Part shown: positions 7,140 to 13,573 of the stretch, piece by piece
Layout: each line of letters opens with the position of its first letter
Position numbering within the stretch: position 1 is the first letter of the stretch
NCBI GenBank assembly: GCA_903892175.1
Contig: CAITHK010000013.1
Coordinates: 1-53,382 of the forward strand
Source: an uncultured Burkholderiales bacterium
GTDB lineage: Bacteria > Pseudomonadota > Gammaproteobacteria > Burkholderiales > Burkholderiaceae_C
Direction of reading: 5' to 3'
DNA length: 53,382 nt
Notes under the pieces: generated by a model
Told to the model about the DNA's origin: nothing
Database searches by the model: none
The model's input: the letters and a program-made list of their open reading frames with translations, nothing else
Position numbers and translations under genes: made by a program

Positions 7140-8375
7140 TCACCTGCGCATCACGACTTCCTGCGGGGTTTGGCCCAGGCCAATGTTGACGCTGCGCAAG
7201 GCGGACAGAACGGCCAAATTGACCCCTGAGCGCACAGGCGCTTGGCCACTGGATGGGTCATCCATCCAAAAGTTCAGCACGAAATGCAGGCCTTGAGGCG
7301 TCACTTCATGGAGCACAGCCGAAGGGCCGGGATCTGGCAACACCCGCGGCGCTCCCAGCGCAGCTTGGACCAACACAGCTTGCACCTGCACCGCATCGGC
7401 CTCCAGGCCCACCCAAAAATGGCAGGTCAGCAGCATGCGACTGTTTTCAAGCGACAGGTTCTCCACCCGCTGGGTGATGAGCAGTTCATTGGGCACGACC
7501 GACTCAATGCCATTGTTGGCCCGCAGCAAGGTGTAGCGGGTTTTGATGTCTGACACCGTGCCCTCAAACCCATCCACCCGTACATAGTCGCCAATCCGAA
7601 GCGATCGCTCAAGCAAGATGACAAACCCACTGACATAGTTGGCCGCCAACTTTTGCAAGCCAAACCCCAACCCCACCCCGAGCGCGCCGCCCAAGACCGA
7701 CAAGGCCGTGAGGTCAACGCCCAGCGTGGACAAGGCAAACAAAGCCCCCAGCACCATCAACAAAGCGCGCACCGCATTGGCCAGTACCCGGCGCATGGAC
7801 AAATCAGCCACCGCATGGCGCAAGACCCGTTGTTCCAGCGCAGCAGACATCCACAAGCTGAGCACCAACACCAAGCCGGACGTCAGCACCACTTGCAGCA
7901 CATGCAACACGGTGATGTGGGTTTTACCCCAGCTGATCTGAATGCCGTCTAACTCGTCGAGAACAGGGGAGATCCAGCCAGTGATCCACAGAACCGCCAA
8001 ACCCCAAGCCATCCACGAGACGATGCGTTCAATGGCGCGTGCGCCCGAAGAGTCTGGAAAAGCCGAAGCCAGCACACGGGCCATCAAGCGAATCAGCAAC
8101 AACGACACCAGCACCGGCACGGCCACTTTGAGCACCGGGACATGTTGGATTTTGAGCAAGCCCAACTTCAACAGCGAGGTGAAGACCAAGCCCAGTGCGG
8201 GAAACAACACCCCATCGACGATGCGACGGCCCAACAAGATCGAGTGCCCCGCAAAGCTGCGCCCCAACATGCGGGTGATCCACCAAGCCAGGCCCAAGCA
8301 GATGAGCAAACCGCCCAACTCCAAAACAATGGCGGGGTTTTGCAAGTCGCGCAAAAGTTCTTGCAAGTCGTTCAT
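7140..8375 (-). CDS. MscS-family mechanosensitive ion channel
   Basis: Start taken at MNDLQELLRDLQ; GVGLGFGLQKLAANYVSGFVILLERSLRIGDYVRVDGFEGTVSDIKTRYTLL is typical of MscS. Confidence 0.92.
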   Translation of the reverse strand: MNDLQELLRDLQNPAIVLELGGLLICLGLAWWITRMLGRSFAGHSILLGRRIVDGVLFPALGLVFTSLLKLGLLKIQHVPVLKVAVPVLVSLLLIRLMARVLASAFPDSSGARAIERIVSWMAWGLAVLWITGWISPVLDELDGIQISWGKTHITVLHVLQVVLTSGLVLVLSLWMSAALEQRVLRHAVADLSMRRVLANAVRALLMVLGALFALSTLGVDLTALSVLGGALGVGLGFGLQKLAANYVSGFVILLERSLRIGDYVRVDGFEGTVSDIKTRYTLLRANNGIESVVPNELLITQRVENLSLENSRMLLTCHFWVGLEADAVQVQAVLVQAALGAPRVLPDPGPSAVLHEVTPQGLHFVLNFWMDDPSSGQAPVRSGVNLAVLSALRSVNIGLGQTPQEVVMRR

Positions 8376-8385
8376 GGGTACGTCC

Positions 8386-9339
8386 TCAAATGTCGGCCAA
8401 GACGCGCAGGTGCGCCTCGACGCTGCGGCCCAAAGCACTCAAGCTGTAGCCGCCTTCCAAACAAGAGACGATGCGGCCCTTGGCATGGCGCAACGCAATG
8501 TGCCGGATGCGGTCGGTGATCCACGCATAGTCTTGCTCGACCAAGCCCATTTGACCCATGTCGTCTTCGCGGTGCGCATCAAAACCTGCGCTGATGAAGA
8601 CCATCTCTGGTTTGAACTCTTCAAGCCGTGGCACCCAATAGGTCTCGATCAATTCGCGCACATCCATGCCCTTGGTGTAGGCAGGCACGGGCAAATTCAA
8701 CATGTTGTGCGCGGGATGGTCTGTGCCCGAGTGGGGATAAAACGGGTGCTGAAAAAAACTCACCATCAACACCCGCTCATCGCCCGACAAGATGTCTTCG
8801 GTGCCGTTGCCGTGGTGCACGTCAAAGTCAACCACCGCCACACGCTTCAAACCATGGCGTTCCAGCGCGTATTTGGCAGCCACGGCCACGTTGTTGAAAA
8901 AACAAAAGCCCATGGCTTGCCGGGCGGTGGCATGGTGGCCCGGGGGACGGACCGCACAAAACGCATTTTCCAACTCACCGGCCAGCACGGCGTCAGTGGC
9001 CGCAATGGCTGCACCTGCGGCACGCAACGCCGCCTTCCACGTGTGGGCATTGAGGGCGGTGTCCGCATCCATGTGCGCATACGCGGGGCCACCCGCTTGC
9101 ATGTCTTCGACCAGTCGCTCCGATATGCCCCGCAAGGCAGCGATGTACATGCGGTCATGGGCCAGCTCAATGTCAGCCAACGGGGCTTCTGGCGCCTCCA
9201 GCTGCGTGAGCCCAATGTCCACGCCGCTGATGAGCAATCGGTCTTGGATGGCGCTGAGCCGTTCGGGGCACTCGGGGTGCCCCTCGCCCATTTCATGCTG
9301 CCAACACAGAGGGTGGGTGTAGTAACCAGTTTTACGCAT
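8386..9339 (-). CDS. Histone deacetylase-family protein (class II HDAC / acetylpolyamine amidohydrolase-like)
   Basis: MRKTGYYTHPLCWQHEMGEGHPECPERL..., RPPGHHA, GFCFFNNVAVAA, DFDVHHGNGTEDI, SAGFDAHREDDMG. Confidence 0.92.
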   Translation of the reverse strand: MRKTGYYTHPLCWQHEMGEGHPECPERLSAIQDRLLISGVDIGLTQLEAPEAPLADIELAHDRMYIAALRGISERLVEDMQAGGPAYAHMDADTALNAHTWKAALRAAGAAIAATDAVLAGELENAFCAVRPPGHHATARQAMGFCFFNNVAVAAKYALERHGLKRVAVVDFDVHHGNGTEDILSGDERVLMVSFFQHPFYPHSGTDHPAHNMLNLPVPAYTKGMDVRELIETYWVPRLEEFKPEMVFISAGFDAHREDDMGQMGLVEQDYAWITDRIRHIALRHAKGRIVSCLEGGYSLSALGRSVEAHLRVLADI

Positions 9340-9411
9340 GGTCTCTTGTCTTGTGAGGGTCTCGATCCAGCTTAACATGCGAGCCTTGCTGACGCTCCAC
9401 AAAGCCCCCGA

Positions 9412-10539
9412 TTGAAACCCTTTGCTTGCCTGTTTTTGATGTTGCGCAAACCCATCGGCTGCTGGCTTGCACTCATGGCTGGTTTGGCCCTGGCCGTTTG
9501 TTCAGCGCCCAGCCACGCGGGTGCCAAACACCATGCCCGCCAGCACTTGCGTGCCATGCCTCGCGCCGCCACCGGCGCGCCCTTTGGCGCGACACCCGAG
9601 GTGCTGCAGCTGGCAGACAAGCTGGCCCAAGCCCACCAATTGCCTGCTGTCTGGGTGCGACAGCAACTCAGCAGCGCGCAGCAGTTGCGTGGCTTGCCCA
9701 AACTGGTGATGCCCCCTCCCGTCAGCACACCCAAGAACTGGCGCGCTTACCGTGAACGCTTCATCGAACCCAAGCGCATCAGCGCTGGCGTGGCCTTTTG
9801 GAACACCTACCGCAGCGCCTTAGAAAAAGCCGAGGCCACTTACGGCGTGCCTGCCGAGATGTTGGTCGGCATCTTGGGTGTCGAAACTTTTTACGGCCAG
9901 CACATGGGCCACTACCGAGTGCTGGATGCGCTGACCACCCTGGCCTTGGACTTTCCGCCAGAGCACCCCCGCGCGGCCGAACGCCAAGCTTTTTTTCAGT
10001 CCGAGTTGGGACACTTTTTGGTTCAGATGCGCCAGCTACCCGCGGGTGCCGCCCCCCTCAAAGGCAGCTTTGCAGGCGCCATGGGTTGGCCCCAATTCAT
10101 GCCTTCGAGTTGGGCCGAATTTGCGGTCGACTTTGATGGCGATGGCCGCATCGATTTGCTCAACAGCCCGGTTGACGCCATTGGTTCGGTGGCCCATTAC
10201 TTCCAAGCTTTTGGCTGGCAAACCGGCATGCCCACCCACTACCCCGTGGGCTTTGACGAATCGCGTTTGGACAAAAGCACGCTGCTGGCACCCGACATCT
10301 TGCCCTCCTTCAGCGTGCGCAGTTTCCAAGACAAAGGGGTGGTGCTGGACAACGTGGCACAACAACACCCAGGGCCCTTGGCGCTGGTGGAGCTCTTCAA
10401 TGGCGACGATGCGCCAAGCTATGTGGCGGGCACCGACAACTTTTATGTGGTGACGCGCTACAACTGGAGCAGTTATTACGCGCTCGCCGTGATTGAGTTG
10501 GGTATGGCAGTAAAGGCGCACATGGCATTACCTAATTAG
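9412..10539 (+). CDS. mltB: Lytic murein transglycosylase B
   Basis: VGILGVETFYGQHMGHYRVLDALTTLALDFP, FAGAMGWPQFMPSSW, DFDGDGRIDLLNSPVDAIGSVAHYF. Start is TTG 9412 or ATG 9439. Confidence 0.93.
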   Translation: MKPFACLFLMLRKPIGCWLALMAGLALAVCSAPSHAGAKHHARQHLRAMPRAATGAPFGATPEVLQLADKLAQAHQLPAVWVRQQLSSAQQLRGLPKLVMPPPVSTPKNWRAYRERFIEPKRISAGVAFWNTYRSALEKAEATYGVPAEMLVGILGVETFYGQHMGHYRVLDALTTLALDFPPEHPRAAERQAFFQSELGHFLVQMRQLPAGAAPLKGSFAGAMGWPQFMPSSWAEFAVDFDGDGRIDLLNSPVDAIGSVAHYFQAFGWQTGMPTHYPVGFDESRLDKSTLLAPDILPSFSVRSFQDKGVVLDNVAQQHPGPLALVELFNGDDAPSYVAGTDNFYVVTRYNWSSYYALAVIELGMAVKAHMALPN

Positions 10540-10742: not shown

Positions 10743-11843
10743 ATGACCCAAGAGCTTTCGGGTGAAAGAAAAAATTTGCTGAAGTTATTGATGCTCGGCA
10801 TTTCGATTGCCTTCATTTTGCTCAGCGTGTTGTCAATCTTGATCGTCCAAGGTGAAAAAGACGTTTCCAACCGGAACCACGCGTTGCGCATGAGCCCGAC
10901 CGAAGTCGAGCCCGGCAAAACCCCACCCGACCCAATGCCCACCAACACAAATTTCACTGAGGTGAATATTGGCCTTTACTTAGACGGCATTGAAAACCTC
11001 TCCGTAAGAGATTCCAATTGGACACCGGCGTTTTATTTGTGGTTTCGCTGGAAGGGCGACAAATCGCTCGATCCCGGCAAGAACTTCAGACTTGTAGATG
11101 CCAAAGTCGATCGCAAAGAACTGGTAGAAACATACAGTGGCGACGATGGAGTAAATTATCAAATATACAAAATAATATCGCGCAATAGCAAATTCTTTAA
11201 CACGACACGGGTGCCACTGGATGATCACATGCTAAATATCTACGTGGAAGACTCTGTCAATGACGTGTCCAAACTGAGATATGTAGTGGATCCTGCCACA
11301 CAGGTCAGTTCACGCGTCAAAATTCCCGGCTACAACATCACGGGGTTCAGCACGGTCGTTAAGCCCCACACCTACAAGACCACCTATGGCGACCCGAGAG
11401 TAGCCGACAACACCAGAACCACATTCAGCGAATTCAATTTCGCACTCACCATCAAACGCAGTGGAATCGCCATCTACCTCAAGCTTTTCATCGGCTTGTT
11501 TGCTGGGGTTTTACTCACCATGTGCAGCTTTTTCATCCGCCCCTCGGATACAGGCCCGCGCTATGCGTTGCCCTCTGCCGCCTACTTTGGCGTCATTGCG
11601 AATGCGTACATGACCAACTCTTTGCTACCCCCTTCGAGTTATTTTGGATTGACAGATTTGGTCACGGGCATTGGCTTGTTTACGATTTCATTGTGCGTGG
11701 TCGCTTCGTTGGTTTCGGGCCACTACTATCTTCGGAAAAAAGAAGAAGAGTTTTCTCGACAAATTGATCAACTCTCCTGGCGCTTCATCGCCGCAGGTTT
11801 CCTGATTGTGAACATCATCCTGCCGGTGTGTGCGTTTTATTGA
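10743..11843 (+). CDS. Putative pentameric ligand-gated ion channel-like membrane protein
   Basis: N-terminal hydrophobic helix, then beta-rich ectodomain (FTEVNIGLYLDGIENLSVRDSNWTPAFYLWFRWKG; VPLDDHMLNIYVEDS), then four hydrophobic segments. The second and third are joined by LLPPSSYFGLTDLV, resembling the M2-M3 loop of Cys-loop receptors. Confidence 0.7.
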   Translation: MTQELSGERKNLLKLLMLGISIAFILLSVLSILIVQGEKDVSNRNHALRMSPTEVEPGKTPPDPMPTNTNFTEVNIGLYLDGIENLSVRDSNWTPAFYLWFRWKGDKSLDPGKNFRLVDAKVDRKELVETYSGDDGVNYQIYKIISRNSKFFNTTRVPLDDHMLNIYVEDSVNDVSKLRYVVDPATQVSSRVKIPGYNITGFSTVVKPHTYKTTYGDPRVADNTRTTFSEFNFALTIKRSGIAIYLKLFIGLFAGVLLTMCSFFIRPSDTGPRYALPSAAYFGVIANAYMTNSLLPPSSYFGLTDLVTGIGLFTISLCVVASLVSGHYYLRKKEEEFSRQIDQLSWRFIAAGFLIVNIILPVCAFY

Positions 11844-12566: not shown

Positions 12567-12643
12567 TTTTACAACTGGTGCAGTTATTACGCCTTGGCTT
12601 CATCGAATTGGGACAAGCTGTCAAAGCGGCCATACCCCATTGA
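12567..12643 (+). pseudogene. Displaced remnant of the mltB 3' end
   Basis: TTTACAACTGGTGCAGTTATTACGCCTTGGCTTCATCGAATTGGGACAAGCTGTCAAAGCGGCCATACCCCATTGA reads FYNWCSYYALA/FIELGQAVKAAIPH* with one frameshift; compare intact mltB end RYNWSSYYALAVIELGMAVKAHMALPN*. Confidence 0.75.
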
Positions 12644-12652
12644 ACTGCCACC

Positions 12653-12874
12653 ATGAACCCGTTGAATCCTAAAAAATTGCACCTGACCAAGTGGACGGCA
12701 GTGCAACCCGTGGCCAAGCAAAAACACTTCTTGGTCAGTCGGGTGATTCAACCCGAGTTACCCACCGACCCGATTGTGTCGGTGGAAATCGAAGCTGTGT
12801 TTTCAAAAGCCACACGGATCATTGCGTGGCGTGATCTGCAAGACGACGCAGTCTGGCGGCAGGGCTGGGTTTGA
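12653..12874 (+). CDS. TIGR02450-like small Trp-containing conserved protein
   Basis: MNPLNPKKLHLTKWTAVQPVAKQKHFLVSRVIQPELPTDPIVSVEIEAVFSKATRIIAWRDLQDDAVWRQGWV matches the family pattern as recalled. Confidence 0.8.
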   Translation: MNPLNPKKLHLTKWTAVQPVAKQKHFLVSRVIQPELPTDPIVSVEIEAVFSKATRIIAWRDLQDDAVWRQGWV

Positions 12875-12933
12875 GACAGATCGAGAGATCTCGAGCACTC
12901 CCAGATACTCATCCTGTATGTGCGTGTTGGCCA

Positions 12934-13326
12934 TTAGCCCTTTAAAGGAGAGATCTGGCCGCGAATCCAAGTTGCCAGGGCATCTTCACTGAGGTCGCCT
13001 GCAGCAAGCGACAAGATCGTTTGAGTGGCCTCGGGCTGCGAGGCGGTGAGGCGGTAGCCGTTCAGACGCAAAGACAAACCTAGCGCTAAAAAAGCAGTCC
13101 TCTTTTTGCCATCGGCGAAGGGGTGGTTTTTTGCCAATCCAAAAGCATAAGCGGCAGCAATATCAGCCACATCCGGCGAGCCGTAATGAGCCAGTTGTTC
13201 TGGGCGTGAAAGCGCGCTGCCCAGTAGGCCTTCATCACGCAAACCTGCAAGACCTCCAAACTGCACCAAACACATGGCGTGTAAACGCACCAATGCTTCG
13301 CGCTGTATCCACCGCCATTGCATCAC
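12934..13326 (-). CDS. Type II toxin, Doc (death-on-curing)/Fic family
   Basis: HPFADGKKRTAFLALGLSLRLNGY Doc motif; RDEGLLGSALSRPEQLAHYG. Confidence 0.9.
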   Translation of the reverse strand: MMQWRWIQREALVRLHAMCLVQFGGLAGLRDEGLLGSALSRPEQLAHYGSPDVADIAAAYAFGLAKNHPFADGKKRTAFLALGLSLRLNGYRLTASQPEATQTILSLAAGDLSEDALATWIRGQISPLKG

Positions 13327-13547
13327 TTGGCCAGCACTTTGAATGTTTCGCGGAATTCATTCATAAATGCTTGCCCCATAGCAATTTCAGCCTCAAGTTC
13401 CGCGTTGTAGGGGGACACCTCAAGCCCGTTCGGCGAAAGCGTTGCATAAAGCGTGTCCCCTTTCGTCACGTGCAAGTGATTGGTAATTTCCTTTGGCAAA
13501 ATCACGCCTAAAGAATTGCCGATTTGAGTCACACGAAGTGGCTGCAT
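13323..13547 (-). CDS. AbrB/MazE-like antitoxin paired with Doc
   Basis: MQPLRVTQIGNSLGVILPKEITNHLHVTKGDTLYATLSPNGLEV...; its stop overlaps the doc start (ATGA). Confidence 0.88.
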   Translation of the reverse strand: MQPLRVTQIGNSLGVILPKEITNHLHVTKGDTLYATLSPNGLEVSPYNAELEAEIAMGQAFMNEFRETFKVLAK

Positions 13548-13573
13548 GGTGAGCTCCTGATGCTGCAATGGTT

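Follow-up and report, generated by a model that had tools for sequence, protein, structure and literature searches.

Bacterial pentameric ligand-gated ion channels (pLGICs) serve as structural models for neurotransmitter receptors, and for most of them the natural ligand and role are obscure. The superfamily, also named the Pro-loop receptors, is defined by seven sequence positions (Jaiteh 2016; PMC4795631, Table 1). Among the bacterial members, GLIC is the proton-gated channel from Gloeobacter, and DeCLIC represents channels in which the pLGIC core carries an additional N-terminal element. Bacterial pLGICs and their fusions to Cache and PBP domains have been known since 2004, and the idea of a sensor partner is known as well. 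In the available sections of Tasneem et al. (2004; PMC549065), the bacterial channels are inferred to be homopentamers, and the genes described beside them encode stand-alone PBP-II or Cache proteins rather than another channel.

Here we describe a channel gene in a 53,382-nucleotide stretch of DNA from an uncultured Burkholderiales bacterium (the window). The open reading frame that a first-pass annotation had placed here holds at its coordinates, with an ATG start at 10743 and a stop codon at 11841–11843, and all peptides quoted there are found in the translation.

10743–11843, + strand: pLGIC gene (P0001, 366 amino acids; coordinates include the stop codon), identified by ORF, PDB profile, structural model, Foldseek and dN/dS

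In G031, a congeneric sister genome, a copy of the gene shares 95% protein and 89% DNA identity with P0001 over residues 148–366 (219 codons). Across these codons dN is 0.026 and dS 0.48–0.54, and the resulting dN/dS of about 0.05 indicates that the P0001 sequence is constrained. P0001 is thus under purifying selection and is not a chance reading frame. The N-terminal half of the G031 copy is gone, with unrelated sequence in its place in the assembly; this replacement (L002:269–773) represents decay, recombination or an assembly join.

Searches with P0001 alone retrieved sub-threshold family matches. In Pfam, Neur_chan_LBD was matched with an E-value of 0.19 (11.5 of 26 bits), and the Neur_chan_LBD/memb cut-off was not reached; in NCBIfam, LGIC_1 (NF033918) was matched with an E-value of 2.4e-8 (33.8 of 500 bits), below the curated cut-off. 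Because no Pfam or NCBIfam cut-off is passed, annotation pipelines would probably label the protein hypothetical. A single-sequence search of the PDB found a GLIC–GlyR chimera (E 1.2e-5). A profile built from 14 Burkholderiales homologues, all 14 of which give sub-threshold LGIC_1 matches, retrieved 274 PDB sequences with E-values up to 1; the 60 matches listed of these 274 are without exception GLIC or pLGIC chimeras (E 1e-23 to about 1e-18), and nearly all span the full length.

The AlphaFold2 model of P0001, a single chain predicted from a 63-sequence alignment, has a pLDDT of 95.1 and a pTM of 0.88, and shows a β-sandwich extracellular domain and a four-helix transmembrane domain. The structure comparison that the first-pass annotation had proposed was run on this single-chain model, and the pLGIC fold was matched: all 50 PDB matches listed by Foldseek are pLGICs (best E 8.9e-20), with GLIC and pLGIC chimeras at the top (TM-score 0.75–0.80 by target length). 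The whole-chain rmsd of about 5–6.6 Å for the best matches indicates that the relative placement of the domains differs from that in solved structures. The pLGIC architecture suggested earlier is supported by the PDB family profile, the sub-threshold NCBIfam matches and the fold. Membership of the superfamily is near certain, and P0001 likely works as a ligand-gated channel.

The model also recovers the domain layout read earlier from the sequence, with an N-terminal helix (residues 7–49), a β-rich region (72–239) and four C-terminal helices (243–264, 270–292, 303–330 and 335–365). The features are as follows.

10761–10889, + strand: N-terminal helix, residues 7–49, predicted signal anchor (TM0) with periplasmic extension (model, alignment)
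10956–11459, + strand: β-sandwich extracellular (periplasmic) domain, residues 72–239 (model, Foldseek)
11211–11222, + strand: Pro-loop VPLD, residues 157–160, without flanking cysteines (alignment)
11361–11399, + strand: loop-C motif KPHTYKTTYGDPR, residues 207–219, conserved in the clade (alignment)
11469–11534, + strand: M1, residues 243–264, with Gly251 replacing the kink proline (model, alignment)
11550–11618, + strand: M2 pore helix, residues 270–292, with R273 at 0', P277 at 4' and F282 at 9' (model, alignment)
11649–11732, + strand: M3, residues 303–330 (model)
11745–11837, + strand: M4, residues 335–365 (model)

Pfam matches to DUF2909 and Sigma_reg_N were rejected; both are sub-threshold and fall on the hydrophobic M3–M4 stretch.

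P0001 matches five of the seven superfamily-defining positions and carries substitutions at the other two (superfamily frequencies from Jaiteh 2016, PMC4795631). The matching residues are the Pro-loop proline P158 (63 of 63 family sequences; 100% across the superfamily), the Pro-loop aspartate D160 (62 of 63; 93%), the β9 aromatic Y197 (W in 71%, otherwise F or Y), the pre-M1 arginine R239 (58 of 63; 94%) and the M2–M3 proline P296 (62 of 63; 88%). The Pro-loop aromatic, F or Y in 62 of the 63 sequences of the A3 family, is V157 in P0001; with F at 71% and Y at 25%, it is a frequent, not an absolute, feature of the superfamily. The M1 kink proline is replaced by G251 and is missing from all 11 aligned rows of the P0001 clade, which have G, A or S; since the superfamily has proline in 77% and Gly in 5%, Gly is a listed substitution. 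In M2, R273 provides the basic 0' residue (79% across the superfamily) and F282 the Leu/Phe expected at 9'. The alignment confirms the earlier assignments of the Pro-loop and the M2–M3 loop, and, as had been observed, no cysteine pair flanks the Pro-loop; P0001 therefore does not have the cysteine pair around the β6–β7 loop that marks metazoan Cys-loop receptors.

The M2 helix aligns without gaps to that of GlyR, from R0' to P23', and is unusual in its proline at 4'. An acidic residue is missing at both −1' and −2', whereas 45 of the 63 family sequences have Asp at −2', which places the selectivity motif nearer to the A-[RK] rule for anion-type channels quoted in the available text of Tasneem et al. 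(2004; PMC549065). This is weak evidence that the motif is closer to the anion type. In loop C, Tyr211, Gly216 and Asp217 are shared by 54, 62 and 51 of the 63 family sequences, respectively, and the longer motif KPHxYKTxxGDPR is conserved in the P0001 clade. We infer that loop C (KPHTYKTTYGDPR) is part of a putative binding site.

P0001 shares with GLIC-type pLGICs a fold that extends over its full length (TM about 0.75 by GLIC length), the Cys-less Pro-loop, the short M3–M4 linker and the M2–M3 proline. It is about 19% identical to GLIC, from which it differs by the extra TM0, Gly for the M1 proline, 0' Arg, −1' Pro and the KPHxYKTxxGDPR loop C. With the anion-type Cys-loop receptors (GlyR, GABA-A, GluCl) it has in common the 0' Arg and the gap-free M2 with P23', but it lacks the Cys-loop cysteines and the long M3–M4 loop, and has −2' Gly and −1' Pro. 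These receptors are found by a profile of the P0001 clade, which matches GluCl, GABA-A, GlyR, GLIC, DeCLIC and sTeLIC in the PDB. The match to DeCLIC is weak; both proteins add an N-terminal element to the core, but that of DeCLIC is a two-lobe folded periplasmic domain whereas that of P0001 is a single helix and a linker.

In a tree of 67 sequences, P0001 falls in a 12-member clade (SH-aLRT 100) with members from Pseudomonadota, Acidobacteriota, Planctomycetota, Actinomycetota, Bacteroidota and Myxococcota; long branches make the positions of L057 and L021 uncertain. The 11 members that align with full N-termini begin with a hydrophobic helix, after which comes a conserved polar segment (H..RM.P...E.G.T.PD, part of which is lost in L034), and a signal-peptidase site is not evident in them. 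The wider family differs in having signal peptides that look ordinary and end in AxA. In the P0001 model, residues 7–49 form one continuous helix, apparently an uncleaved signal anchor, and we refer to the group as the TM0 clade. The nearest relatives of P0001 are seven genes (L139–L145; 41–47% identity) from other classes of the phylum, and this sub-branch has LPSAA or LPTAA in M2 and Val or Ala at the aromatic position before the Pro-loop proline. The distribution is sporadic: 4 of 61 relatives, counting the window genome, have a match at E 0.001, and at family level the channel gene is present in 13 of 401. A search of L025–L035 for unrelated neighbouring genes that the clade keeps in common found none. 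P0001 is a real, constrained and acquired pLGIC. It marks a divergent clade, unannotated and widely transferred, whose members have an additional membrane helix and a loop C that is conserved.

The AT-richness pointed out by the first-pass annotation is borne out, with a GC content of 48.3% for P0001; the window as a whole has 58.5%, and the core genes on either side have 60.1% (mltB) and 62.8% (queG). The acquisition that the annotation proposed is supported by an empty site in related genomes. In two of these (L120 and L121), convergent mltB and queG genes adjoin each other, and the channel gene is missing between them. In the sister genome G745, mltB continues straight into sequence equivalent to window positions 12570–12898. 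In the window, this segment duplicates the mltB 3' end in diverged form, and the two copies share a near-identical 23-bp repeat that frames the accessory insert of about 2.1 kb.

10459–10481, unstranded: left copy of the 23-bp direct repeat, within the mltB 3' end
12570–12592, unstranded: right copy of the repeat, at the start of the duplicated mltB 3' end and the far edge of the channel insert

On the simplest reading, a piece of about 2.1 kb that contained the channel gene and an mltB tail of its own became attached to the mltB 3' end and displaced the old tail. The partial channel copy of G031 likewise lies between mltB and queG. Scans for promoters and terminators performed no better than shuffled sequence. 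A Fic/Doc toxin gene lies beside a MazE-type antitoxin gene at 12934–13568 (− strand); these genes are missing at the same place in G745 and so probably mark another insertion at this site. Upstream of mltB, a gene for an MscS-type mechanosensitive channel adjoins a histone-deacetylase-family gene (7143–9402, − strand).

Several TM0 genes of relatives lie next to a second pLGIC gene. Two loci from Gammaproteobacteria (L032, L033) and one from Bacteroidota (L031) have a same-strand gene for 708–713 amino acids just upstream of the TM0 channel, separated by 15 to about 65 bp. In the L032 product, dCache and MCP-like PDC domains precede a divergent pLGIC region (GLIC–GABA-A chimera in the PDB, E 3e-4; family profile, E 1.8e-7), and the L031 and L033 products align to it over the full length. 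An AlphaFold model of the fusion, built from a three-row alignment, reached a pLDDT of 40 and was set aside. In L157, a close relative of P0001, the upstream gene encodes a 775-residue PBP-I–pLGIC fusion (Peripla_BP_6, E 1.7e-41; LGIC_1, E 2.9e-16).

L031:5859–9095, same strand: dCache–pLGIC fusion and TM0 pLGIC pair
L032:523–3828, same strand: dCache–pLGIC fusion and TM0 pLGIC pair
L033:1585–4772, same strand: dCache–pLGIC fusion and TM0 pLGIC pair
L157:6418–12698, one strand: consecutive genes for a sensor histidine kinase, a PBP-I–pLGIC fusion and a TM0 pLGIC

The L032 and L033 pairs are near-identical, and the L031 pair comes from another phylum. Outside the clade, L040, L050, L053 and L054 (Myxococcota or deltaproteobacteria) each have two different pLGIC genes in tandem; in the tree, the upstream members form one group and the downstream members another. 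Compared with the ART-LGICs in the available sections of Tasneem et al. (2004; PMC549065), the same kinds of sensor fusions (Cache, PBP-I) adjoin the TM0 genes, but in these loci the fused protein is itself another pLGIC subunit, encoded beside the TM0 subunit. The TM0 clade and the recurrent gene pairing are new; no report of either was found in the literature searched, in which coverage of subscription journals was thin.

The best explanation as a whole, which we hold with high confidence, is that P0001 is a pentameric pLGIC subunit tethered by TM0. The signal anchor would hold the β-sandwich domain in the periplasm and lead into the M1–M4 channel domain, with five subunits, either five copies of P0001 or P0001 together with a sensor-bearing pLGIC partner, surrounding a pore lined by M2. 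A small solute, an ion or a change in pH would be sensed at the subunit interfaces (loop C, KPHTYKTTYGDPR), and the signal would pass through the conserved coupling residues of the Pro-loop and the M2–M3 loop to open the pore, with a shift in ion flux or membrane potential as the outcome. That P0001 is an unrelated four-helix membrane protein whose β-rich periplasmic domain resembles pLGICs by chance could appeal to the weak single-sequence Neur_chan_LBD match (E 0.19), but is refuted by the profile and fold searches, in which every match listed is a pLGIC, and has a negligible probability. It is improbable, too, that the fold was kept while conduction was lost, leaving a ligand-sensing membrane receptor. 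The unusual M2 composition of the sub-branch, with LPSAA, a proline at 4' and an alanine at 6', and sensor kinases upstream in two relatives would suit such a receptor; however, the length of M2, the 0' Arg, the 9' Phe, the M2–M3 proline and most of the coupling path are retained, and the P0001 model has no cytoplasmic signalling domain.

The adjacent second pLGIC subunits in four relatives suggest two-subunit channels, and P0001 might need another pLGIC subunit, one that bears a sensor, in order to function, being here either an orphan or a derived homomer that works alone. This is a tentative alternative, which the dCache fusions directly upstream in L031, L032 and L033, the PBP-I fusion in L157 and the tandem pairs outside the clade, with their separate tree groups, speak for. 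Against it, the partner is missing at most TM0-clade loci with flanking sequence, including the close relatives L153–L155, L158 and L159, and P0001 is under purifying selection without one. A family-profile search of the window genome returned a single pLGIC gene and no second, so that two-subunit assembly is not supported there; a search with the dCache fusion, run without a positive control, returned none. The assembly comprises 312 contigs (96.6% complete, 6.55% contaminated), so a partner in another part of the genome might have been overlooked. For the clade at large, it is conceivable, though we consider it doubtful, that bacteria have heteromeric pLGICs in which a TM0 protein is one type of subunit, assembled with a second pLGIC subunit that bears a dCache or PBP-I domain. 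If true, bacteria, like animals, assemble channels from different subunits. The recurring pairs offer a direct, testable case for such channels, and the sensor domains of the fusions (dCache or PBP-I) indicate which ligands should be tried first.

Two further loci have other genes upstream of the TM0 gene. In L153, a kinase similar to that of L157 is present and the fusion gene is missing. In L160, from a complete genome, a 278-residue protein is encoded directly upstream of the TM0 channel (L160:6926–7759); it has no convincing Pfam match and by eye resembles a helical sensor with membrane helices.
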